A program made the translations under genes and the position numbers. A stretch of 64,000 nucleotides of DNA from Desulfobulbus oralis (GTDB taxonomy: Bacteria > Desulfobacterota > Desulfobulbia > Desulfobulbales > Desulfobulbaceae). This document shows positions 27,059-39,546 of this stretch, in pieces. The stretch is from contig NZ_CP021255.1 in the NCBI RefSeq assembly GCF_002952055.1, positions 932,851 through 996,850 on the forward strand, given 5' to 3'. The first letter of the stretch is position 1. Each line of letters begins with the position of its first letter. The notes below the pieces were generated by a model. It ran no database searches, was not told the origin of the DNA, and saw only the letters and a program-made list of their open reading frames with translations.

Positions 27059-27086
27059 AAAAAGGGCAGCGCCTGCCGCGCTGCCC
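27059..27086 (-). terminator. Rho-independent terminator of the chemosensory locus
   Basis: On the minus strand GGGCAGCGC (27086-27078) pairs perfectly with GCGCTGCCC (27072-27064), then five T residues follow. It lies 21 bases after the last CheW-like gene of the minus-strand signalling locus. Confidence 0.85.
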
Positions 27087-27107
27087 CTGTGCAGAGGTGG
27101 GCCGGCC

Positions 27108-27635
27108 CTATTCGTAGCTCCGGCCAAGCAGACGGCCCGTGTCCACGATGGGAATGGCCTCGTCCCTGTAGCTGAAGCAGGAAAGGCTGATGGCCGGCCA
27201 GAGCGGACTGTCGTTTGGCAGTTCGCAGGCCATGCTGTCATCCACAAACACGGTTTCCGGCAGCGCCGGCAGCACCAAGGCGCCGTATTCCAGCGGCTGC
27301 CCGGGAACGCGCTGAAAGGCCAGCACCAGGATGTATTTGGGGGGCTCCGCCGCGGGCGCGGTCTGTGGCAGGAGCAGCCGGGCCAGATCAATGACCGGTA
27401 TCCACTTGTCCTGCCAGAGCAGCAGGCCCCGTGCATGGGGGGCAGCGCCGGGCACAGGGAAGATGTCCGGATTTTCGACGATTTCAAGGGTCGTGTGCAG
27501 CGGCAGGGCCAGATGGTGGCCGCTGGCGAATGCCACGATACGGGCCGGGGCCGTTTTCCTGTGCTCCGTTCCATTCCGGCTCTCTCCAAGGGCCAGAGTG
27601 CTCGTCATTTCCTGAAGCGCTTCCTGATCACTCAT
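27108..27635 (-). CDS. CheW-domain protein, distal gene of the Pil-Chp-like locus
   Basis: A 175-residue protein with a CheW-type beta barrel: IVAFASGHHLALPLHTTLEIVE, then HARGLLLWQDKWIPVIDLARLL and the closing SYRDEAIPIVDTGRLL. CheW domains couple receptors to CheA-type kinases in the cytoplasm. It starts one base after the stop of the gene before it, so the two are coupled. In Pil-Chp systems an extra CheW protein (ChpC) occurs at this end of the operon, which is a possible equivalent. Confidence 0.75.
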   Translation of the reverse strand: MSDQEALQEMTSTLALGESRNGTEHRKTAPARIVAFASGHHLALPLHTTLEIVENPDIFPVPGAAPHARGLLLWQDKWIPVIDLARLLLPQTAPAAEPPKYILVLAFQRVPGQPLEYGALVLPALPETVFVDDSMACELPNDSPLWPAISLSCFSYRDEAIPIVDTGRLLGRSYE

Positions 27636-27636
27636 C

Positions 27637-28074
27637 TTATGCCCCCAAGAGCAGATGTTGCAGGGTCTTTGCAGAGCAGACAAAAACCGGCTGCCCGTCC
27701 ATGAGCGTATACTGCCGGACCGGCGAAGCCGCGTTGAGCAGCACGTCGGGCAGCTCATGGATTTCCGGAGCGAAGTCGGGCAGCGTCCTGGCCTCCGACC
27801 AGCACCACTGGGTGGTTATGCCCTCGGCGGTCACGATCTTCGTGGTGATGAAGCGATCTTCAGGACAAGTGTCGAGCAGGGTGAAATCCTGGGCAAGCAC
27901 AATGTAGCAGACATCGTCCTGGCCCGGAACGGTCAGAAAGCCCGGCAGACCGCTCTGCGTGGGCAGGGTGTCCAGGTGCTCGATCTCCCCGATCTCGGCC
28001 TGCGGAACAAGCAGCCGCAGCTTGTCGGCGCGGAGGAGCACAGCGCCATGTTCTGTTGATGTCGTTTGAGCCAT
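27637..28074 (-). CDS. CheW-like protein between the hybrid kinase and the last CheW gene
   Basis: A 145-residue soluble protein. Its N-terminus (LLRADKLRLLVPQAEIGEIE) and C-terminus (YTLMDGQPVFVCSAKTLQHL) resemble the strands of a CheW/PilI-like barrel, but the match is weak and the central part is unusual. Position and orientation between the ChpA-like kinase (40 bases upstream) and the CheW gene make an adaptor role likely, though this is inference. Confidence 0.5.
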   Translation of the reverse strand: MAQTTSTEHGAVLLRADKLRLLVPQAEIGEIEHLDTLPTQSGLPGFLTVPGQDDVCYIVLAQDFTLLDTCPEDRFITTKIVTAEGITTQWCWSEARTLPDFAPEIHELPDVLLNAASPVRQYTLMDGQPVFVCSAKTLQHLLLGA

Positions 28075-28114
28075 TTCGAGTCCCTCTATGGGTGCAGGCC
28101 GCCTGTCCCCGGCC

Positions 28115-30985
28115 TCAGGCGGCAGTGGCCAGCGCCCTGTTGATGACCTTGAGCAGATCGTTGTCGTTGTAGGGCTTGGTGATATACTGGTTCACGCCGG
28201 CACTGTCGGCCAGAGCCCGGTGTTTTTCCAGGGAACGCGAGGTGATCATGATGACCGGCAGGTTTTTGGTTTCCTCTTTGTTCCGTATGTAGCTGGTCAG
28301 TTCGATGCCGTTCATGTTGGGCATCTCCAGATCGGTAAGGACTATATCCGGCTTGAGCGTGTCCAGCATGGAGACGGCCTCCATGCCGTCCTTGGCCGTG
28401 CCGGTGTCGAAGCCGGCGTCCGTCAGCAGCTCCTGCAGGGAGTTGCGCACGGTCAGGGCATCGTCGACCACGAGCACGCTTTTGCGGCCCTGCCGCTGGG
28501 CGGCCTGTTCGGCGCCGGCATCCTGCCGGACCGGGGCCTGGGTCTTTCTGACGGCGCCGGCCAGGAGCTGGGGCACATCGATGTCCACCGCCACGCTGCC
28601 GTCGCCCAGGATGGACAGACCGGCCACGCCGCGGGCATGGCGACCGAAGCGGCCGGGATAGACGACGAGCAGTTCCCGGGCATCGACGAGGCTGTCCACC
28701 AGAAGGGCACGGGTCTTGTCCGCCAGATGGACGATGATGACATCATAGTCGTTCAGAGGCTTCTCCGGATCCAGCGGCAGACCGACCAGATCCGCCATGA
28801 ACAGAGCGACCATGGCCTTTTCGCCCTGGCGGTAGAAGAGCTGGCCGCCCAGGCGGTCAAAGCTGCCGGCGCCCCGCGGCACCGCCTGCGACACGCTGAT
28901 GGAGGGCAGGGCATAGCGGTGCTCGCCAAGGCCGACGATGATGGAGTAGACGGTGGAGAGACTCGCGGCAAAATGCAGTTCAAAGGTGCAGCCTTCGCCA
29001 GGCCTGGAGAAGACCTGCATCGTCCCGTGCCTGTCGCTGACCCATTCATGCACCACATCGAGGCCAACGCCGCGCCCGGAAATTTCGGTGACTTCCGTGT
29101 TGGTCGAGAAGCCCGGCGCCAGGATGAGCCGGGCCAGTTCCTCTTCACTGATGTCCGTGTGCCTGGCCGGGATCAGGCCCTTTTCGACGCCCCGTTTGGC
29201 AATGGCGTCATAGTCGAGGCCCCGGCCGTCATCCGAGCAGCGCAGGGCGATCTGCTGGCCCTGCAGGGCAAAGGACAGGGTGATGTGGCCTGCCGGCGGC
29301 TTGCCGCAGGCAATGCGGTCCTCAGGCGATTCCAGCCCGTGGTCGACCGCGTTGCGCAGGAGGTGCAGGAGCGGTTCGGCCAGCTTGTTCAACACGTCGC
29401 TGTCGATCAGGGTGTCGCCGCCTTTGAGTTCGAGCACAGCCTCCTTGCCGGTGGCCTTGGCGGTGGTGCGCACATTGCGTTGCAGGCGGGTCTCCAGAAC
29501 GCCCACTTCGGTCATGCGGGTGCCGTTGACCAGATGCTGGAGGTCTCGGGAAAAAATCTGCTGGCGCGACTGGATGGCGGAAACCGAGGAGATCGTCCCC
29601 TCGAGCGCGTGGGTCAGCACGCGGAGGTCGCCCGTCTCTTCGGCCAGGGCATGGGTGGTGCTGTGCAACTCGCTGTACTGGTCCATTTCCAGCGGGTCGA
29701 ATTCCGTATCCTCCGCACGCCGGTTCCGGGCGCGCATCATGGTGAGCGCGCGAATGTCCACCAGGTTCTCCAGTTCCATCAGGCGGCGCTGGACGCGCAG
29801 ATTCTGGCGCACCAACTCTCTGGCCTGCAAGCCCAGCTTCTTCAGGCTGGCCTCCATGGCGGCGCTGGTCACCGAAACCTCGCCCGAGATCCGGAACAGT
29901 TCCTCGATGAGTTTGAGATTGACGCGCAGGGTGGCGGCGGTGCCCTGATCGACACCCCCGACCGCCTTGATGCCCGGGACCGGACTGGTCGATACGGCAG
30001 GGACCGGCATCTGTGCTCCGCCGCCTGCCGGAGCCCGGCGTACGAGCTGGCTCAGGTCGTCGCCGCGGTCAATCAGGTTGGCCAGATCCAGAATGCCCTG
30101 CAGCACGCTTTGTGCCTGCTGCGGATATTCGTCGCTGCCGTTGACGTAGTTGACCATCTGCTCCAGACAGTAGGCCCCGTCCAGCAGGATATCGCCCACC
30201 GTCTTGCCGACCTTGTTGTCCTCCTGGTGCAGTTCGAAGTATTCGAGAATGTCTTCCAGGTTGTGCCCCAGGGAGACCAGCCCCTTCAGGCCGATGATCG
30301 CGCCGGAGCCTTTCAGGGTATGGGCCACCCGCTTGGCAGCCGTCAGGTCGGAGCCGTCGCCCGAGCCAGCCACGATGCTGCGGATCAGCCTGATGAGATG
30401 GGCGGCCTGCCCGGGCGCCTCCTGCAGGAAGCCCTCGATAACCTTGGGATCCACATCCTCGGGCAACACCAGGGCCACATCCTCGGGATGCGCCAGCAGG
30501 GGCCGCAGGTTTTCCGCTCCGCCTGCGGCCGGCCCCTTGAGCTGGGCCGGCATCACGCCGAGCTGGTAGGTGACTTTGAGGGCCTGCTCCTCCTCCATCG
30601 GGCTGGGGGCGCGGCAGAGCATGTCCACCAGTCCGGCGGCGGCGGATGGATCCTCGGTGTGGCGCAGGTAGTAAACCATGCGATCCGGCCAATTGTGCAG
30701 AAATTCGACCGTCTCCTTCCGTTCCTCCGCCGTTTGGGAGGCCAGCAGCAGGGTATTGTCAAGAACATGGGTGCATACTGCCTGCAGGCCGGGAAATCCC
30801 GCCATTTCAGCGGCTTCGCCCATACGCTGTACCTGTCCGCTATACTGATCCATAGCGTCTATGAAGGCGTTGTCTTCGAAACCAAGCGTGGCAAGCTGTT
30901 CCAGACTTTCGTCCAGATGCGGCTTCATCAGTTCGATTTCTCCGGCCAGTGCCTCGATCAGGTCGTTCAGTTTCACGGTATGCAC
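28115..30985 (-). CDS. ChpA/CheA-type hybrid histidine kinase with CheW and receiver domains
   Basis: A 956-residue protein. An N-terminal helical region (1-170) is followed by an HPt domain with phospho-accepting H222 (KRVAHTLKGSG). The P3/P4 kinase core is at about 340-670: N box LLRNAVDHG at 542-550, G1 SDDGRGLD near 585, and G2 GRGVGLDVV at 637. A CheW-like domain spans about 670-810 and a receiver about 836-950, with the phospho-acceptor in LTDLEMPN (D885). This order matches ChpA of type IV pilus systems, with one HPt instead of many. Start GTG after GAGGGG. It is the central kinase of the locus. Confidence 0.9.
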   Translation of the reverse strand: MHTVKLNDLIEALAGEIELMKPHLDESLEQLATLGFEDNAFIDAMDQYSGQVQRMGEAAEMAGFPGLQAVCTHVLDNTLLLASQTAEERKETVEFLHNWPDRMVYYLRHTEDPSAAAGLVDMLCRAPSPMEEEQALKVTYQLGVMPAQLKGPAAGGAENLRPLLAHPEDVALVLPEDVDPKVIEGFLQEAPGQAAHLIRLIRSIVAGSGDGSDLTAAKRVAHTLKGSGAIIGLKGLVSLGHNLEDILEYFELHQEDNKVGKTVGDILLDGAYCLEQMVNYVNGSDEYPQQAQSVLQGILDLANLIDRGDDLSQLVRRAPAGGGAQMPVPAVSTSPVPGIKAVGGVDQGTAATLRVNLKLIEELFRISGEVSVTSAAMEASLKKLGLQARELVRQNLRVQRRLMELENLVDIRALTMMRARNRRAEDTEFDPLEMDQYSELHSTTHALAEETGDLRVLTHALEGTISSVSAIQSRQQIFSRDLQHLVNGTRMTEVGVLETRLQRNVRTTAKATGKEAVLELKGGDTLIDSDVLNKLAEPLLHLLRNAVDHGLESPEDRIACGKPPAGHITLSFALQGQQIALRCSDDGRGLDYDAIAKRGVEKGLIPARHTDISEEELARLILAPGFSTNTEVTEISGRGVGLDVVHEWVSDRHGTMQVFSRPGEGCTFELHFAASLSTVYSIIVGLGEHRYALPSISVSQAVPRGAGSFDRLGGQLFYRQGEKAMVALFMADLVGLPLDPEKPLNDYDVIIVHLADKTRALLVDSLVDARELLVVYPGRFGRHARGVAGLSILGDGSVAVDIDVPQLLAGAVRKTQAPVRQDAGAEQAAQRQGRKSVLVVDDALTVRNSLQELLTDAGFDTGTAKDGMEAVSMLDTLKPDIVLTDLEMPNMNGIELTSYIRNKEETKNLPVIMITSRSLEKHRALADSAGVNQYITKPYNDNDLLKVINRALATAA

Positions 30986-31011
30986 CCCCCTCTTGGGTTT
31001 GCGGCTCCAAC

Positions 31012-32817
31012 TCAGGCTGCCTGCGGCAGCTTGAAGACGCTGACGGAATCAACGAGCTGGCGGGCAGTGTCGAGCAGGGAGTCGGTCTCCCGGTTCTGCG
31101 CCTGAATCTGCTCGGCGGTGTTCTCGGTACTGCTACCAATCTTCTGGACAGCTTCCAGCAGCTGGGCGCTCATGGCCTTCTGCTGTTCGGAAGCGCCGGC
31201 AATGTGGCGAACCTGCTCGACGAGCTGGGCGGTAATTTCCTGCGTGCGCCGCATCTGCTCGCCAGCCTTCTGGGCCTGCTCGGAACCGGCGACAACCTGT
31301 TCGATGGTCTTGTTCACGGTGTTGATGGTTTCGTTTGTTTCCACCTGGATGTTGTTCACCAGGGTGGCGATCTGCTCGGTAGCGTTACGCGAGCTTTCCG
31401 CCAGCCGCTGCACCTCTTCGGCAACGACCGCGAAGCCGCGCCCGGCCTCACCGGCGACGGCGGCCTGCATGGAGGCGTTCAGGGCCAGGACGTGCGTGCG
31501 TTCGGCGATGGTGTTGATCAGATTGACGATGCCGCTGATTTCCTGGGAACGCTCGCCCAGGCGCTTGATGCGTTTTTCGGTTTCGGCAATGGTCTCGCGG
31601 ATGGATTCCATGTCGCGGACCGTGTCGGTAACGGTGCCCAGAGCGTTATGGGTAACCTCGGTGGCCTCACCGGCGGAAATGTTGCTCTGTTCGGCCAGGG
31701 CCGCCACCTGGTTCATGGTCTGGGTCGCTTCAAACAGCGATTCCATCATCTGGTTGACGTTTGTCCGTTCCTCTTCCGCGGTCCTGGTAACCTGCTCGGC
31801 TCTTGATTTCACGTTGCCGGACGCCTGGGCCACATGGCCGGCGATATCGGTGACGCCCATCAGCACGCGGGCGGTTTCCTCGGCCAGGGCGTTGATGGAG
31901 TCGGAAATCGTGCCGATAACATCTTCGGTCACAGGCGCTCTGACTGTTAAGTCTCTTTGCGAGAGCTGGTTCACTGCCTGCAGAATGTTGATGACCGAGT
32001 CGTTCAGCTGTTCGTTTTCACGCTCGGTTCTTTTCTTTTCGCTTTCCGTCCTTTCCAGGTCTCTTTTGGATTGGGCCAGCATCAGGAAGGAGACGAGGCC
32101 AATGAGGATCAGGGCGGCAAGGAAGAGGCTGATGAAGAGTGTCTGCGCCTGCCTCTGCGCGGATTCCGCGGCTTCGATTTCGCCCTTGGTACGCTCCTCC
32201 ATGTGGTGGAAGAAGTCTTCCAGCGGCAGCATGGTCTGCGCTTTGGCCTGCAGGTATTCAGTGCCGTTGAGCAGGCGGATGGCGAAATCGCGGTCCGGCT
32301 TGCCCAGGCGGCCAAAGGTGTTGGAAGCGTCCAGATAGCGGCCTTTGACCGCATAGATGGCCTGATTCTCCAGGCGCACCAGATCGCGGGCGCTGCTTTC
32401 CACCTGTTCCAGAGCAGCGAACTCTTCCTTACTGAAACCGGCTTCACGCATCAGGTCCAGGAGCGATTTGGTCACGCCCGAACCTTCGCGGGCGGGTTGG
32501 CCGCCCGAGACCAGATCCCAGTAGACGTGATGATAGTGGAGCGGCCGCTCCAGCTTGCCGTTCCGGATATCGATGACCGCGTTGTAATCGCGTTCGAACT
32601 TGGCGTCGCCGGTAACGGCGTAGTTCATGGCCAGTCGGGTCTGGTCGTCGATGCTCTGCCACAACTCGGAGGCCAGCCGGTAGGACTGAATCTGGCTGGC
32701 CTGGGCTTTGGTCAGTTGAGCAGACGCGTTACGCAGCCGGTTGAACTGGAAGGCCAACAAGCCCAGAACCACGACAAGGGCAATGGTGAATAGAGTGATG
32801 TATCGTTTTAAATTCAT
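31012..32817 (-). CDS. PilJ-like methyl-accepting chemoreceptor
   Basis: A 601-residue receptor. TM1 lies at about residues 7-26 and TM2 at about 227-250, enclosing a helical periplasmic domain of about 200 residues. The signalling tip reads [15 protein letters not shown] and [17 protein letters not shown], the variant seen in PilJ rather than in standard chemoreceptors. It should signal to the ChpA-like kinase encoded 26 bases downstream. Directly upstream on the same strand lie five binding-protein genes, the nearest 36 bases away, which may supply its ligands. No CheR or CheB gene is in the locus. Confidence 0.88.
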
Positions 32818-32853
32818 GAGAGTCTCTCCTTGTTGGGCTTTTCAGCCGCTGTT

Positions 32854-33624
32854 TTATTTGTAATCCTTTTTGGCGGCGCCAAACCATTTCTTCGTGATGC
32901 GGTCCAGGGTGCCATCGGCTTTGATTGCCGCAAGTGCCTTGTCGAACTGGGCCAGCAGTTCGGCATCTGTTTTGCGCAGGCCGAAGGCTATCTCGTTTTC
33001 ACCAAAGTTTTCAGCCAGAATATGGAATACCCCAGGCGAGTTGGCGACATAATAGGAAGCCGGCAGGGAATCCTGCACCGAGGCATCGGCAGAACCGTCA
33101 AGCAGCGCCTTCAGGCAGCCGTCCGCCCCGGGAAGCTGCTCTAATTTAGCGATGCCCTTGCCGGATGCGTCTTTGAATTTTTCGACTGCCGGCACGGAAA
33201 AAGTGCCCGCTTCCATGCAGACCGTTTTGCCTGCCAGATCGCTTTTGGAGCGGATGGAAGAATCCGCGGCCACCACGATCGCCTGGGCATTTTTTATGAA
33301 AGGCATGGTGAACGCGTAAATTTTTCGCCGCTCGGGCGTGACATTCAGGCCGGAGGCGAGCAGATCGACGCTGCGACTGTCGAGCAGCTCGTCTTTTCTG
33401 CTCCAATCAATGACCTGAAGTTCTATGGTTTTGTTGATTCTTTTGCCTATTTCCTGCAGGAGATCCACTTCATAACCGACGAGCTTGCCCTGGTCGTTGC
33501 GAATGCACATGGGGGCGAACACGTCCGTCACGCCGACTTTAAGCGCAGTCTCCTGCGCTTCTGATGAAAGTGGCAGCAGTAAACTGAGACAAATGAATGC
33601 GCTGAAAAAGAATAATTGTTTCAT
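32854..33624 (-). CDS. Periplasmic amino-acid-binding protein, array member 1 (family 3 SBP)
   Basis: A 256-residue exported protein with a signal peptide (cleavage after SSEA near residue 23). The two-lobed family 3 fold shows LVGYEVDLLQEIGKRI, SGLNVTPERRKIYAF (Arg for the ligand carboxylate) and SVQDSLPASYY (Asp for the amino group). Two cysteines (GKTVCMEAG and DGCLKALL) probably form a disulfide, as in all array members. GGGGAGG precedes the start. It lies closest to the receptor gene. A 195-bp gap upstream with TATAAA on the minus strand might hold its own promoter. Confidence 0.85.
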   Translation of the reverse strand: MKQLFFFSAFICLSLLLPLSSEAQETALKVGVTDVFAPMCIRNDQGKLVGYEVDLLQEIGKRINKTIELQVIDWSRKDELLDSRSVDLLASGLNVTPERRKIYAFTMPFIKNAQAIVVAADSSIRSKSDLAGKTVCMEAGTFSVPAVEKFKDASGKGIAKLEQLPGADGCLKALLDGSADASVQDSLPASYYVANSPGVFHILAENFGENEIAFGLRKTDAELLAQFDKALAAIKADGTLDRITKKWFGAAKKDYK

Positions 33625-33819
33625 TGTAAACCTCCCCAGGAGAAAAATGAACGTAACAACCCGTTGAAAGGCTGATATCACGTTGTACATTCCACAGATG
33701 CAGAGCATACGGTTAAAGCCATAGATTTATAATTTGTTGTATGCAGCCAGAATAGTTTTCTACAGGCTGGTTAAAAACATCGTGGTGGTGCAACGCCGCT
33801 GCCCCGTTCACACCTGAGC

Positions 33820-34584
33820 CTAGTTTATGTCGCCCAGCCAGCGCTCACGAAGTCTTTTCATGGTGCCGTCAGCCTCCATGGCTTTAAGCGCGTCGTTGAA
33901 TGTGCCGAGCAGGGCTCTGTCTTCAAGACGCAGGGCAAAGGCAGTTTGGCGTTTGCTCAGAGCTCCGGGCACGATACGAAACTGTCCGGGGTTGTGTTTG
34001 ATATAATATTCACAGGTCACCCCATCCATCACGGCACTGTCCGTCTCGCCCGCCGTCAGCTGTATCAGGCAGCCTTCCATGGTGGGCGCTGTCTGAACTT
34101 TGGCTGTCTGGCCGCTGGCGCTCCGGAAGTCCTGCACCAGTTCGCCAGCTGAAGCGCCTTCCATGACACAAACCGTTTTACCGCCCAGGTCGTCCCGCGC
34201 TTTGATGGGCGAGGCAGTGTTCACGATAAGCATTTGAGTATACTTCTGAACCACCGGGTCGGTAAAGGCATAGATCTTTTTGCGTTCTTCCGTGATACTG
34301 AGACCGGAAGCGATGACGTCGATCTGCTTGCCGTTCAGCTCTTCTGTTTTCTGATCCCAGTTGATGACCTTGAATTGCATGGTTTTGCCGATTCGCCTGC
34401 CGACTTCCTGTAAAACATCCACGTCATAACCGACAAATTTCGTGTCGGCATCGCGAAAGACCATGGGCGGATTGTCGGCAAGTACCCCCACCATCAGGGT
34501 TTCCTCGGCATGCCCGCTCCCTGCCCACAGGATCGTAAGCAATGCGGGAACGACGGATAGTTTTCTCCAGAAAAAACCTTTCAT
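33820..34584 (-). CDS. Periplasmic amino-acid-binding protein, array member 2
   Basis: A 254-residue family 3 binding protein. The signal peptide ends at GSGHA. Ligand-site residues lie in SGLSITEERKKIYAFTD and SAVMDGVTCEYYIKHNPG, and the paired cysteines in GKTVCVMEG and EGCLIQL. It is most similar in sequence to member 5 (both share VMDGVTC and a YDVDVLQE segment), which suggests duplication. GGGGGA lies before the start. The ligand is not predictable beyond an amino acid or similar polar compound. Confidence 0.85.
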   Translation of the reverse strand: MKGFFWRKLSVVPALLTILWAGSGHAEETLMVGVLADNPPMVFRDADTKFVGYDVDVLQEVGRRIGKTMQFKVINWDQKTEELNGKQIDVIASGLSITEERKKIYAFTDPVVQKYTQMLIVNTASPIKARDDLGGKTVCVMEGASAGELVQDFRSASGQTAKVQTAPTMEGCLIQLTAGETDSAVMDGVTCEYYIKHNPGQFRIVPGALSKRQTAFALRLEDRALLGTFNDALKAMEADGTMKRLRERWLGDIN

Positions 34585-34638
34585 TGCATCCCCCGATAGA
34601 TTTGTTGTCTCCCCATCCGTCCCGGCGTGTTGCCGTTT

Positions 34639-35406
34639 CTATTTGCCTTTGCCAAGCCAGCGTTCACGAATGGCCTGCATTGTGCCGTCGGCTTTGATTG
34701 CCGCAAGCGCCCTGTTGAATTCCTCTGCCAGCGTGGCATCGGATATGCGCATGCCATACGCATATTCATCCTTGCCAATATCCTCGGGCAGAATGCGAAA
34801 GGCACCCGGGTTGTGGTTGGAGTAATAGATGCCGGGCACTCCGTCCAGAACGCTCGCATCCACCTCGCCGGCGAGCAGCTTGACGAGGCATTGTTCATTG
34901 CCGTCAGCCGTTTCCACCTGAATTTTTTGCCCGGGCAGTTTGCGAATTTCGTCGATAATATAGGCTCCAGTCAGCGCGCATACCGTTTTTCCCTCTAAAT
35001 CCTTCTTGTTTTGAATTGGGGAAGCGGCCGCTACAATGATTGCCTGAAAATTCTGCATGACCGGCTGGGTATAACGGAGGATTTTTTTACGTTCTTCGGT
35101 AATACTCAACTGGGAGGCAATCACATCAATGCTTTTGTTCGCCAGTTCCTGTTCTTTTTGATCCCAGGAAATGACCTTGAATTCGATTTTTTTGTTAATG
35201 CGCCTGCCGATCTCATGCAAAAGATCCACATCGTAACCAATCAGCTCCGCGCCCCGATCGCGAAAGACCATGGGCGGAATATCGTCGCTCACGCCAACAA
35301 CCAGTGTGTCTGCGGCAGTTGCTGTCTGAGCTCCTGGCCCGAACAGCAGCAAAGAGGCAAACAGGACCATACCCATTTTAAAGGAAAAGAAATTTTTCAT
35401 ATCCAT
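34639..35406 (-). CDS. Periplasmic amino-acid-binding protein, array member 3
   Basis: A 255-residue family 3 binding protein with a signal peptide (cleavage near TATAADT). IGYDVDLLHEIGRRINKK, SQLSITEERKKILRYTQ and SVLDGVPGIYYSNHNPG mark the ligand cleft; the cysteine pair is in GKTVCALTG and EQCLVKLLAG. The start could be either of two methionines two codons apart (35406 or 35400). It is 54 bases upstream of member 2 in the same direction. Confidence 0.85.
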   Translation of the reverse strand: MDMKNFFSFKMGMVLFASLLLFGPGAQTATAADTLVVGVSDDIPPMVFRDRGAELIGYDVDLLHEIGRRINKKIEFKVISWDQKEQELANKSIDVIASQLSITEERKKILRYTQPVMQNFQAIIVAAASPIQNKKDLEGKTVCALTGAYIIDEIRKLPGQKIQVETADGNEQCLVKLLAGEVDASVLDGVPGIYYSNHNPGAFRILPEDIGKDEYAYGMRISDATLAEEFNRALAAIKADGTMQAIRERWLGKGK

Positions 35407-35486
35407 CTTATGGCAATCCTGATAGAGTAGTAAAAATACTGATATTTGTTGGTGATGCAGTTTCAGGCTTTAAGCTGATCAAATGC

Positions 35487-36269
35487 TTATTTGACGCTGC
35501 CAAACCAACGCTCGTGAATGCTTTTCATTGTGCCATCCAACTGCATGGCACGAATTGTCTCGTTCAACTGTGTAAGCAGGGCCCTGTCACTGAGACGCAG
35601 GCCGTAGGCAAGATCGTCCTCGCCAAAGTGATCTGCCAGAATGCGGAATTGCCCAGGATTTTGATTTGAATAGTAGGTCAGTGGCGTCAAATCCAGCACT
35701 GCGGCTTCCACCTCTTCTGATATAAGAGAGATCAGGCAATCATGCAAAGAAGAAAAACTGAATTTTATTGTTGATCCTGATTTTACATTAAATCGTTCAA
35801 CAATAGGTATGGAGTTACTGTCTTGAAGAAGACAAACTTTTTTCCCGATAATATCATTTTTTGTATGTATTGGAGATGTTGCATTAACTATAATGGCCTG
35901 GGCGTTTTGAATTAATGGCTCGGTGTAGGCAATGACTTTTTTTCTCTCCTCAGTAATACTGAGATTTGAGGCTATGAGATCAATATTCTTGCTGTTGAGT
36001 TCCTCGATTTTTTTATCCCACTCAATAACCTTGAACACTATGGGTCTGGAGAGACGTTTCCCTATTTCCTGCAGGAGATCCACGTCGAAACCGACCAGTT
36101 TCGATTCGTTGTCTCTAAAGCATATGGGTGGCACATCATCCGAGATGCCAACTGTTAGCGTGTCCTCCGCTTGTGCAGTGCCAGGACCTGTTCCGTCTGC
36201 CAGGATGCCCAAAAGACATGCGCCGGCAATGAGCATTTTGGAAAAACAAGATGGTTTCATACGCGCCAT
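35487..36269 (-). CDS. Periplasmic amino-acid-binding protein, array member 4
   Basis: About 260 residues, signal peptide ending AQA before EDTL. The cleft motifs are SNLSITEERKKVIAYTE and AVLDLTPLTYYSNQNPG; the cysteine pair is GKKVCLLQD and HDCLISLIS. It is the most divergent and most AT-rich member of the array, with several long A/T stretches, which hints at a separate history or relaxed composition. The start at 36269 is favoured over 36260 and over an upstream methionine, but no good ribosome site is visible. Confidence 0.82.
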   Translation of the reverse strand: MARMKPSCFSKMLIAGACLLGILADGTGPGTAQAEDTLTVGISDDVPPICFRDNESKLVGFDVDLLQEIGKRLSRPIVFKVIEWDKKIEELNSKNIDLIASNLSITEERKKVIAYTEPLIQNAQAIIVNATSPIHTKNDIIGKKVCLLQDSNSIPIVERFNVKSGSTIKFSFSSLHDCLISLISEEVEAAVLDLTPLTYYSNQNPGQFRILADHFGEDDLAYGLRLSDRALLTQLNETIRAMQLDGTMKSIHERWFGSVK

Positions 36270-36306
36270 GTTGCAAAAAGAATGGGGGATTGATTTAGTC
36301 TGTATT

Positions 36307-37071
36307 TTACTCGTGACTGCCAAACCAGCGTTCGCCAAGGGTTTTCATGGTGCCGTCCGCCTCCATGTCCGCAATGGCTCTGTCAAATTCAGCCGCCAGC
36401 TGGGTTTCGTTTTTCCGCAGTCCAAAGGCGGTTTGGCCAACAGACAGCTCGCCTGACAGAATGCGGAACTGTCCGGGATTGTGTCTTACATAGTAGGCGC
36501 AGGTCACACCGTCCATCACCGCGCTTTCCACTTCACCGGAGGCCACCTGCACCAGACAAGCCTCCAGGGTCGGCGCCTGACTCTGCTTCGCTACCGGGCC
36601 CCCTGGCCCCCGGAACCCGGCCACTGTTGCGTTTGAGGAGGAACCCGCCATTGTACAGACGGTCCTGCCGCTCAGATCATTGGTGGTCTTCATGGGAGAG
36701 CTGTCAGCCACAATGGCCGTTTCCGTGAACTTTTTCACCACAGGGGCGGTCAGGGCATACAGCCCTTTGCGTTCTTCGGTAACCATGAGGGCAGCGGCGA
36801 TAACATCAATTTTCCCCGAGTTGAGGTACTCTGTCTTTTCATCCCAGGGGATCACCATGAACTGCATGCTTTTGCCGATTCTCCGGCCAATTTCCTGCAG
36901 CACGTCCACGTCATAGCCAACGATCTCCGCCTCGGCGTTGCGAAATACCATGGGTGGAGAATCGTCAAGCACGCCGACTTTCAAGGTGCCCTCGGCCATG
37001 GCACTGCCGGTCCACAGGCCCAGCAGCAGTGCCGGGACGACGAAAAAGACATGATGGAACAGTCTGTTCAT
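36307..37071 (-). CDS. Periplasmic amino-acid-binding protein, array member 5
   Basis: A 254-residue family 3 binding protein with a signal peptide ending SAMA. The cleft shows AALMVTEERKGLYALTA and SAVMDGVTCAYYVRHNPG; the cysteine pair is GRTVCTMAG and EACLVQVAS. GAGGGC precedes the start. It is the nearest paralogue of member 2 in the array by eye. Immediately upstream, on the same strand, lie the remains of a sixth copy. Confidence 0.85.
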   Translation of the reverse strand: MNRLFHHVFFVVPALLLGLWTGSAMAEGTLKVGVLDDSPPMVFRNAEAEIVGYDVDVLQEIGRRIGKSMQFMVIPWDEKTEYLNSGKIDVIAAALMVTEERKGLYALTAPVVKKFTETAIVADSSPMKTTNDLSGRTVCTMAGSSSNATVAGFRGPGGPVAKQSQAPTLEACLVQVASGEVESAVMDGVTCAYYVRHNPGQFRILSGELSVGQTAFGLRKNETQLAAEFDRAIADMEADGTMKTLGERWFGSHE

Positions 37072-37084
37072 TGCATTTGCCCTC

Positions 37085-37490
37085 TATGATACAATGGTGT
37101 TTAACAGTATCTTGCTGCATTGAACGCGCGATTTTTCTCTTGGTTCTGGCCACCCCAAGCAGCGTACACGGGTGGGCTGCATTGTGCCAGCGCACTGCAG
37201 CCCCTCAAGGCTTTGATTGATGCGCTGAACCGCTGCCCTGTCTTTCAGACGCAGACAGAACGCTCCTGCTTCACTTTTCGAAAATGATCCGGGAGTATGC
37301 GCGACCATTGCTAATGATTACGTGGACAACAAGCTGCAATCAGGCAGTCCGCTGCCGCCTTGCCGGCCATCAGTTCCCGTAAACATGCATCAATTGAGCT
37401 GCTGGTACTGATTTACCTCCTTACTGCTTCTCCTTGTTTCTGAAGACTAGGGACGGATAGGTATCCTGTATTTCCATGGCCAAGCCTGTC
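37085..37490 (-). pseudogene. Decayed sixth amino-acid-binding protein gene
   Basis: Pieces of the same family are legible in several frames on the minus strand. TYPSLVFRNKE (about 37440-37490) matches the N-terminal PPMVFRN segment. SIDACLRELMAGK (about 37370-37410) matches the second-cysteine region. HTPGSFSK ... AFCLRLKDRAAVQRINQ ... AGTMQ (37100-37310) matches the C-terminal lobe. Stops, frameshifts and a missing middle show it is dead. The hydrophobic RLVLLLLAPIL just upstream may be the old signal peptide. Confidence 0.8.
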
Positions 37491-37642
37491 GCTACTCTTT
37501 TCTTTGTAAAATGGGAGCCAACAGGAGCAGAACAAGACGCAGCGAATAATAAGGGTGCTTGTCATCACTATCCTGAATCATCGGTTGATGCACAGGTTGG
37601 CCACAGGGTGCACTCTTGCGCATCAACCGCTTCCCCTATGCT

Positions 37643-38245
37643 TTAATTCGCTTCCAGTGTGCGCTCCAATGCATTCAGCAGCGAATCACTGTCCAGGTCA
37701 AACCATATCTGCTCTTCAATCATACAGCAGGCCCGGACATGGGGTTCGAGGAGCTGCGGGGCCAGATCCGCATCGCTCTGCTTTTCGTTCGTCCATTTGA
37801 GGCGATAGGGCAGGTTGTCGATGAGAATGCCTGCCGCGTCGGCATCGTGCCCCAGGATCAGCAGTCGCTGGGTGCTTTGGTCCGGCGAGCTGTCCAGGTG
37901 CAAAAAGCGGAGCAGGTCAAAGACCGGGATGAGGCGGCCATGCAGGTTGACGACCCCAAGAAGCCAGTGGGGTGTATTGGGAAGGTGGTATATTTGGGGT
38001 ATGTCGGTGAGTTCGCTGCTGTCATCGAAATTGATCATCAGACCCAGCTCCCCGACACGGATGCCCTGTCTGTTCTGCTCCCCCTCATAGGTGGCAGACT
38101 TCCGATTGTTGACCCTGAGCGCCATGACGCCCGTTTCGCCGCGCGCCAGGACAAAGTCCCGTTCCAGAGCCGCTACGGGCATCAGAGCGGGATAGACGAG
38201 CTCTGCCGCCATGGCGATGGCCTGTTCTGCTGAATCCGTACCCAT
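37643..38245 (-). CDS. PilI/CheW-like coupling protein
   Basis: A 200-residue protein with a C-terminal CheW domain: GLMINFDDSSELTDIP, then the hallmark HWLLGVVNLHGRLIPVFDL, and WFDLDSDSLLNAL at the end. It should link the PilJ-like receptor to the ChpA-like kinase. GGAGAGG lies 5 bases before the ATG at 38245. In known Pil-Chp operons pilI is directly followed by pilJ; here the binding-protein array is inserted between them. Confidence 0.82.
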   Translation of the reverse strand: MGTDSAEQAIAMAAELVYPALMPVAALERDFVLARGETGVMALRVNNRKSATYEGEQNRQGIRVGELGLMINFDDSSELTDIPQIYHLPNTPHWLLGVVNLHGRLIPVFDLLRFLHLDSSPDQSTQRLLILGHDADAAGILIDNLPYRLKWTNEKQSDADLAPQLLEPHVRACCMIEEQIWFDLDSDSLLNALERTLEAN

Positions 38246-38285
38246 ATCCACCTCTCCGGGCTAAAAAGACTCGTGCTGGCTGCAC

Positions 38286-38645
38286 TTACAGGTTGCGCAG
38301 AACGTCCAGCACATCCGCATCCGTGTAGGGCTTGGTGATATAGCCTTTGGCGCCCAGCATCTGCCCCCAGGCCTTGTCGGCCTTCTGATTCTTGGCGGTC
38401 ACCAGCACCACGGGGAGATCCTTGGTGTTGGGATCGTTGCGCAGCGCGCGGGTGGCGGCGAAACCATCCATCACCGGCATGTTGACATCCATGACCACGC
38501 AATCCGGTTTGGCCTGTTTGACGGCATCCAGGGCAGCCTGACCGTTGACCGCGGTTGTCACCTGGTAACCGGCGTTGGAAAGCAGCTTTTCGATACGGCT
38601 GAGATCGGCTGGATTGTCATCTACAGCCAGAATTGTACGAGCCAT
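38286..38645 (-). CDS. PilH-like single-domain response regulator
   Basis: A 119-residue receiver domain. The acidic pocket is AVDDNPAD, the phospho-acceptor Asp is in VVMDVNMPVMDG (about residue 52), and the conserved Thr and Lys are in LVTAKN and YITKPY. With no output domain it should act by binding partners or as a phosphate sink, as PilH does for twitching motility. It lies between the PilG-like and PilI-like genes, matching the pilG-pilH-pilI order. Confidence 0.88.
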   Translation of the reverse strand: MARTILAVDDNPADLSRIEKLLSNAGYQVTTAVNGQAALDAVKQAKPDCVVMDVNMPVMDGFAATRALRNDPNTKDLPVVLVTAKNQKADKAWGQMLGAKGYITKPYTDADVLDVLRNL

Positions 38646-38670
38646 TTTCTCTCTCCTTGACTATTTGGGA

Positions 38671-38701
38671 AAAAAGGAGCGCAGGCAGCAGAGCTGCCGC
38701 G
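38671..38701 (-). terminator. Hairpin with T run between the pilG-like and pilH-like genes
   Basis: On the minus strand GCGGCAGC pairs with GCTGCC(T)GC, then six T residues follow after GCTCC. It lies directly after the pilG-like stop. It could be a partial terminator that lowers expression of the following genes. Confidence 0.4.
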
Positions 38702-38703
38702 TG

Positions 38704-39546
38704 TTACGCTGACAGATATTCATTCAGGGTTGTATACAGCGTTTGCGCCTGCACCGGCTTGGTCAGATAGGCGTCGCACCCGGCCATTTTGCCGCGGATC
38801 CGGTCAAAGGGCGAGGTGCGGCTGGTGAGCATGATGACCTTGACCCGCTTCAGCATGTGGGGCAGGGCCTTGATACGGCGGCAGGTCTCGTAGCCGTCCA
38901 TGCCGGGCATGAGCACATCCAGCAGAATGCAGACATAGGGGACGTTCTGGCAGCGGGCGATGGCCTCGTCACCGCTGTCGGCAAAGTCGGCGTTCATGCC
39001 CCGCTTGGCGAGAAAGGATTGCAGCTGTTGCCGCACGGCCAGACTGTCATCCACCACCAGGACCCGCTTCGCCTCTTTGGGCGCGGCAGCGGCCGGGCCG
39101 GCGCTGGCGGTTTCAAGCTTTGGCGGGCCGGGTTTCGCTGTCGCCTGCGGCTGGAACTGAGAAACGGGTTGGGCTGTTGCTGTCTGGGCGGGGGCTTTGC
39201 CGCTGTTTTTGAACATGATCCGGGAAAGGAGCATGGGCAGAATGGGCCACTGTACCGGCCGCTTGAGGGCCGTGTGGTTGGCCGGAATTTCACCCCTGCA
39301 ATCGACCCAGCCCACGGCCTTTTTGGCGAGCCAGGCTTGTGCGGCTGCCCATTGCATGGCTTCCGGACTTTGACCATCCACCAGAATGACGTCGGCCGCC
39401 GGCCCCTCGTCTGCCTCAAGCAGGTGCAGAGCGGGCGTGCGGCGTTGGGACAGTTTCACGATGGCCTGCAAAAGGCGCCGTTCAGTTTCATTGAAACCCA
39501 GAACCAGCAGCTTGAGCGAAGCGCTCTCCGGATTGGCTGTTTGCAT
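38704..39546 (-). CDS. PilG-like response regulator with an N-terminal extension
   Basis: A 280-residue protein. The N-terminal part (residues 1-120) has the alternating strand-helix pattern of a degenerate receiver-like fold (VLGFNETERRLLQAIV, ADVILVDGQSPEAM) without the full acidic pocket. A Pro/Ala/Gln-rich linker follows, then a complete receiver from about residue 160 (VLVVDDSLAVRQQL, LLDVLMPGMDG, MLTSRTSP, YLTKPV). It is the first gene of the minus-strand locus. The N-terminal domain resembles FimX/PilG-type accessory modules only loosely. Confidence 0.8.
   Translation of the reverse strand: MQTANPESASLKLLVLGFNETERRLLQAIVKLSQRRTPALHLLEADEGPAADVILVDGQSPEAMQWAAAQAWLAKKAVGWVDCRGEIPANHTALKRPVQWPILPMLLSRIMFKNSGKAPAQTATAQPVSQFQPQATAKPGPPKLETASAGPAAAAPKEAKRVLVVDDSLAVRQQLQSFLAKRGMNADFADSGDEAIARCQNVPYVCILLDVLMPGMDGYETCRRIKALPHMLKRVKVIMLTSRTSPFDRIRGKMAGCDAYLTKPVQAQTLYTTLNEYLSA

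Follow-up and report, generated by a model that had tools for sequence, protein, structure and literature searches.

A Pil-Chp-type chemosensory locus of the sulfate reducer Desulfobulbus oralis carries an array of five intact family 3 binding-protein (SBP) genes directly ahead of its receptor gene, and the products of these genes are probably exchangeable ligand adaptors of that single adjacent receptor. This agrees with the original prediction of SBPs handing ligands to the receptor, a view backed by the gene order in four of five related clusters, the drift of the periplasmic receptor domain in the one cluster devoid of SBPs, natural fusions of SBP3 domains to the receptor domain, the diversity of the ligand pockets and the finding that the amino-acid permeases of the genome are already served.

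Organization of the locus and its genomic setting

The locus occupies the minus strand from position 39546 to 27108 of the window, i.e. the whole 64,000-nucleotide stretch of DNA under analysis. In the direction of transcription it comprises pilG-, pilH- and pilI-like genes, an SBP remnant, SBP1 to SBP5, and genes for the receptor, the kinase, a small protein and a CheW protein:

38704..39546, minus strand: PilG-like response regulator (Pfam REC at residues 162-274, E 4e-26)
38286..38645, minus strand: PilH-like single-domain response regulator (REC, E 3e-28)
37643..38251, minus strand: PilI-like CheW coupling protein (CheW, E 1e-17)
37072..37642, minus strand: remnant of a sixth SBP gene with stops and frameshifts (tblastn and profile match)
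36307..37071, minus strand: SBP1, family 3 SBP (SBP_bac_3, E 1e-32)
35487..36338, minus strand: SBP2, family 3 SBP (SBP_bac_3, E 6e-36; start probably internal)
34639..35406, minus strand: SBP3, family 3 SBP (SBP_bac_3, E 2e-34)
33820..34584, minus strand: SBP4, family 3 SBP (SBP_bac_3, E 2e-35)
32854..33708, minus strand: SBP5, family 3 SBP, adjoining the receptor gene (SBP_bac_3, E 5e-35; start probably internal)
31012..32817, minus strand: chemoreceptor (MCPsignal, E 1e-33; two TM helices flank a periplasmic domain)
28115..30985, minus strand: ChpA/CheA-like kinase (Pfam: one Hpt, HATPase, CheW, C-terminal REC)
27637..28074, minus strand: small conserved protein (no Pfam or NCBIfam match)
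27108..27758, minus strand: CheW-like coupling protein (CheW, E 7e-13; start probably internal to a long ORF)
27062..27088, minus strand: terminator-like hairpin beyond the final gene (stem of 11 pairs, then a run of T)

The order, strand and coordinates of the genes were as first described, and the locus indeed lacks an ABC permease or ATPase. The intergenic gaps measure 26-111 bases and there are two ORF overlaps; the true starts of SBP2 and SBP5 probably lie 3' of the starts of the longest ORFs. The hairpin is a consensus match only, and such hairpins do not exceed the chance number in the region. Ahead of its C-terminal receiver the PilG-like protein bears about 120 conserved N-terminal residues that find no match in Pfam.

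Some of the names initially given to the components hold in part. The receptor, called PilJ-like, has the MCPsignal domain but not the Pfam PilJ periplasmic domain (PF13675), and the kinase, called ChpA-like, combines Hpt, HATPase, CheW and REC domains with a single detectable Hpt. Several Hpt-type domains are expected of ChpA; the window kinase has one, and the kinase of another locus in the same genome has four. Two CheW-like genes had been placed at the end of the locus; the one at 27108-27758 is a CheW protein, whereas for the small protein at 27637-28074 such an identity finds no support, with an hhalign probability below 1%, an AF2 pLDDT of 40 and both Pfam and NCBIfam silent. This small protein is nonetheless kept between the kinase and CheW in all three related clusters for which the downstream part is available (G005, L060 and G176, introduced below).

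The genome, a single contig of 2.77 Mb, encodes two chemoreceptors and two ChpA-type kinases. A Pil-Chp-type system is also present at about 1.78-1.79 Mb, where a receptor adjoins a 1533-aa kinase with the four Hpt domains mentioned above; the window locus is thus not the only system of this type in the genome but a divergent second one. Searches across the whole genome found neither CheR (PF01739) nor CheB (PF01339), and methylation adaptation is apparently missing from both chemosensory arrays. Two PilT-family ATPases score over the cut-off and no flagellar rod protein was found in the genome, which makes pili the likeliest motility output, as far as gene content can tell.

The SBP family and its ligand pockets

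All five SBPs match PF00497 well above its cut-off of 26.4 bits (112.8-123.5 bits), share 39-58% pairwise identity and retain intact frames. The sequence marks by which they had been recognized are invariant among the five: TEER in four of them with TPER in SBP5, the Asp that precedes YY, and a single pair of Cys residues (C139/C172, SBP4 numbering). Their signal peptides, judged by eye, are of the ordinary cleavable kind, likewise as predicted. The remnant at 37072-37642 is also real, being matched in tblastn by the C-terminus of SBP4 (E 3e-9), by SBP3 (E 4e-7) and by SBP2 (E 1e-6), and independently by a profile of the five SBPs; pieces of the N-terminal, middle and C-terminal parts of an SBP are spread over different frames.

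Two further relatives of the array SBPs are dispersed in the genome, at about 0.89 Mb (L133:6171-6983) and 1.73 Mb (L134:6860-7798). No amino-acid permease was found adjoining either paralog, and in one of them the site Asp is replaced by Lys. In a tree with the transport SBPs of the family, in which long branches were flagged and from which the G176 SBP was left out, the seven members of the window genome form one clade with the SBPs that are linked to receptors in G005 and L060 (support 90/85), while the transport SBPs are placed elsewhere on much shorter branches. The best match of the array profile outside this genome, among 74 genomes of the family, is the receptor-linked SBP of G005. The G+C content of the SBP genes is 44-58% as against 58-64% for the chemosensory genes, and it likewise falls below that of the neighboring genes in G005 and G176. 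A plasmid search with SBP1 recovered only distant SBPs of less than 60% identity.

The best match of the array SBPs in the PDB is AncQR (4zv1), which served as the alignment reference. By this alignment all five retain the Arg/Asp pair that marks an alpha-amino-acid site, a Trp occupies the aromatic position, and SBP1 has Met at the T70 pocket position. At the other eight pocket positions, which we take from glutamine-binding protein as ligand-contacting, the mean pairwise identity of the five is 20% as opposed to 48% overall, and only 0.6% of random sets of eight columns show an identity that low. The same eight positions are 100% identical in 14 transport SBPs of one clade, as against 81% overall. 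This pattern is a strong hint from sequence that the five bind different ligands; it stops short of proof because the contact positions are presumed ones and because the five array SBPs are paralogs, whereas the 14 transport SBPs are mostly orthologs.

Recurrence of the cluster and the receptor domain

The most specific marker of the cluster is the PilI-like protein. In 258 genomes of the order, its profile found matches at E <= 1e-20 in just four: the window genome, G005, G015 and G176. A fifth cluster, L060, comes from a 'Pseudomonadota' MAG and was recognized on scanning named genomes with the receptor domain. The PilG-PilH-PilI-receptor-ChpA gene set recurs in all five, with identities across the clusters of 42-72% for the PilG-like protein, 61-84% for the PilH-like protein and 49-80% for the kinase. 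That the cluster is both rare and scattered suggests spread by horizontal transfer. In G015 pilH is duplicated in tandem (L079:1188-2028), and the PilI of G176 (L146:6878-8938) is a 686-aa protein with a long N-terminal extension ahead of its CheW domain.

In four of the five clusters, representing three lineages, SBP genes lie exactly between pilI and the receptor gene. The window has five at this position besides the remnant, G005, L060 and G176 have one each, and G015 has none. Thus, the search of relatives for the pilI/SBP/pilJ-like order, which had been proposed as a check, returned that order in three of them, and its recurrence in four clusters rules out a chance adjacency of SBPs and receptor. 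The linked SBPs of the relatives differ in form, those of G005 and L060 being lipoproteins by eye (LLSGC-DRQ and LLGGC-NPT) and that of G176 having an N-terminal membrane anchor, likewise by eye. The site Asp is missing from all three, and in G005 the Arg as well, which leaves room for ligands other than amino acids; going by these residues, the assignment of amino-acid ligands may not extend beyond the window array.

The closest relative of the window cluster is the SBP-less G015, which belongs to the same genus, with identities of 72% for PilG, 84% for PilH, 74% for PilI and 80% for the kinase. The cytoplasmic domain of its receptor is 82% identical to that of the window, about equal to the other clusters, and the periplasmic domain is 29% identical, compared with 45% in G005, 44% in L060 and 37% in G176. 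Such a drift of the periplasmic domain is as predicted from the loss of an SBP partner, as seen in one lineage and in a MAG that is 74% complete.

The periplasmic domain of the window receptor (about residues 25-230) was modeled by AF2, with 25 relatives in the input, as a four-helix bundle with a pLDDT of 93.9, and it matches no Pfam model or PDB sequence. Its nearest fold is that of MCP2201, which superposes over 143 residues with an rmsd of 2.4 (Z 13.5). LytS, as complexed with XylFII, is also similar (Z 9.6), as is TorS complexed with TorT (Z 8.9); the structural match to Pseudomonas aeruginosa PilJ is a middling one (Z 8.8, 130 of 268 residues). As middling Z scores are common for helical bundles, the predicted fold is to be taken as compatible with SBP docking and not as docking itself. 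By its signalling domain the receptor is closest to the family's other Pil-Chp-type receptors (37-40% over that domain).

The same periplasmic domain also occurs fused to SBP3 domains: to three of them in a 2371-aa hybrid kinase of a genome from the same genus, G004 (L055:4001-11116, minus strand), whereas a kinase from Spongiibacteraceae (L074) has a single one. The G004 kinase displays three SBP3 domains in series, the four-helix bundle, HAMP, PAS, the kinase, two receivers and Hpt. The association is not an obligate one in either direction. Many receptors and kinases that carry the domain are encoded more than about 10 kb from any SBP3 gene, as is the case at most of 26 named loci, and the domain can therefore work without an SBP; equally, 12 other regions have SBP3-containing sensor-like ORFs lacking the domain.

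Proposed mechanism, alternatives and known systems

These observations lead to the proposal that the five SBPs, perhaps together with the two dispersed paralogs, are dedicated signalling adaptors and not transport proteins. Each would bind a different periplasmic small molecule, most probably an alpha-amino acid or something closely related, and in its liganded form would dock on the four-helix-bundle domain of the lone adjacent receptor. Docking would shift the signalling state of the receptor and alter phosphorylation of the ChpA-like kinase, and thereby of the PilG- and PilH-like receivers. Since the genome has no detected CheR or CheB, the readout would be the presence or level of the ligands and not adaptation to a gradient. 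The contact between SBP and receptor, the identity of the ligands, the direction of signalling and type IV pili as the output are what we infer from the above comparisons.

An unlikely alternative is that the array consists of ordinary transport SBPs feeding distant amino-acid ABC permeases, its placement in the operon reflecting co-expression of uptake and sensing. The array members do, after all, belong to SBP_bac_3 and have the Arg/Asp pair of amino-acid sites, the genome has amino-acid permeases, and several SBPs can share one permease, as ArgT and HisJ do in E. coli. A dedicated ABC permease elsewhere would have spoken against a sensory role; the amino-acid permease loci (about 0.75, 1.41 and 2.13 Mb) have an SBP of their own in every case, and no unserved amino-acid permease was found in the genome; array SBPs engaged in transport might still share one that is already served. 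Yet the SBPs of the permease loci branch elsewhere in the tree, the single SBPs between pilI and the receptor in G005, L060 and G176 are unaccompanied by a transporter, and the pockets of the family transport SBPs are fixed while those of the array are not.

We give little probability to another view, in which the SBP genes arrived recently, or are drifting, and ride along in the locus while contributing little or nothing to sensing. The lower G+C of the SBP genes, the decayed sixth copy, and the dispersed copies, without amino-acid transporters and in one case with Asp changed to Lys, would all fit such a history. It sits poorly with five intact frames, none of which has lost Arg, Asp or the Cys pair even though pairwise identity is down to 39-58%, with a divergence that, unlike neutral decay, is concentrated in the pocket, and with the recurrence of an SBP at the same position in other clusters. 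Lower still do we place the chance that the SBPs signal to another sensor, e.g. the second Pil-Chp-type receptor, with the adjacent receptor sensing directly in the manner of MCP2201, even though that nearest fold does bind its ligands directly and most proteins with the receptor domain have no nearby SBP3: whether a cluster has SBPs goes with the state of its adjacent receptor domain, and it is this very domain that is found in fusions with SBP3. Against the adaptor proposal itself counts the precedent that adjacent SBP and sensor genes are sometimes not partners (PMC11113362).

Activation of receptors by SBPs is established in many families (PMC11113362, PMC9602780), and sensing through SBPs by PilJ-type receptors is stated only as an open possibility in recent work on Pil-Chp (PMC10896506, PMC12632253). 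We found no report of an SBP array within a Pil-Chp-type locus in open-access full texts, which does not prove that none exists. The locus renders this mode of sensing testable, as the receptor, the candidate SBPs and the kinase are co-directional, and clusters with one SBP or none offer natural comparisons.

Among known systems, the Pil-Chp system of P. aeruginosa (PilG, PilH, PilI, PilJ, ChpA) shares with the window locus its receivers, coupling protein, receptor and multidomain kinase as well as the order of their genes. The window locus differs from it in the missing PilJ periplasmic Pfam domain, in having one detectable Hpt, in the lack of PilK (CheR) and ChpB (CheB) from the genome, and in the SBP array between pilI and the receptor. 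In XylFII-LytS and TorT-TorS the sensor on which a periplasmic SBP acts is a four-helix bundle, with a fold matched by the window domain, but those SBPs are of other families, there is one per sensor, and the sensors are histidine kinases and not a chemoreceptor. GlnH-GlnX of Corynebacterium and Mycobacterium, where a family 3 SBP has been proposed to act on four-helix-bundle periplasmic domains (PMC9769921), is likewise comparable; it differs in having one lipoprotein SBP and output via the protein kinase PknG, with no chemosensory array. Tar of E. coli, which works with maltose-binding protein, and CtpL of P. aeruginosa, which works with PstS, are chemoreceptors switched on indirectly by a liganded SBP (PMC11113362, PMC12632253), but these SBPs are shared with an ABC importer, and no dedicated multi-SBP array stands beside the receptor. 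BvgS/EvgS-like hybrid kinases use SBP3 (Venus flytrap) domains for sensing, as is proposed here, in fused form, whereas the window SBPs are separate proteins and would therefore be exchangeable.

The array is best read as a novel variation on SBP-dependent chemoreception and not as a separate type of system. Its fullest description, one receptor that is read through at least five, perhaps seven, exchangeable SBPs with diversified pockets, in a pilus-type array that lacks methylation adaptation, is offered tentatively. On such a reading as a modular amino-acid sensor, inputs would evolve through gene duplication with the receptor and signalling core held fixed and, if this is true, a bacterium with two chemoreceptors would widen its sensory range by duplicating adaptors in place of receptors.
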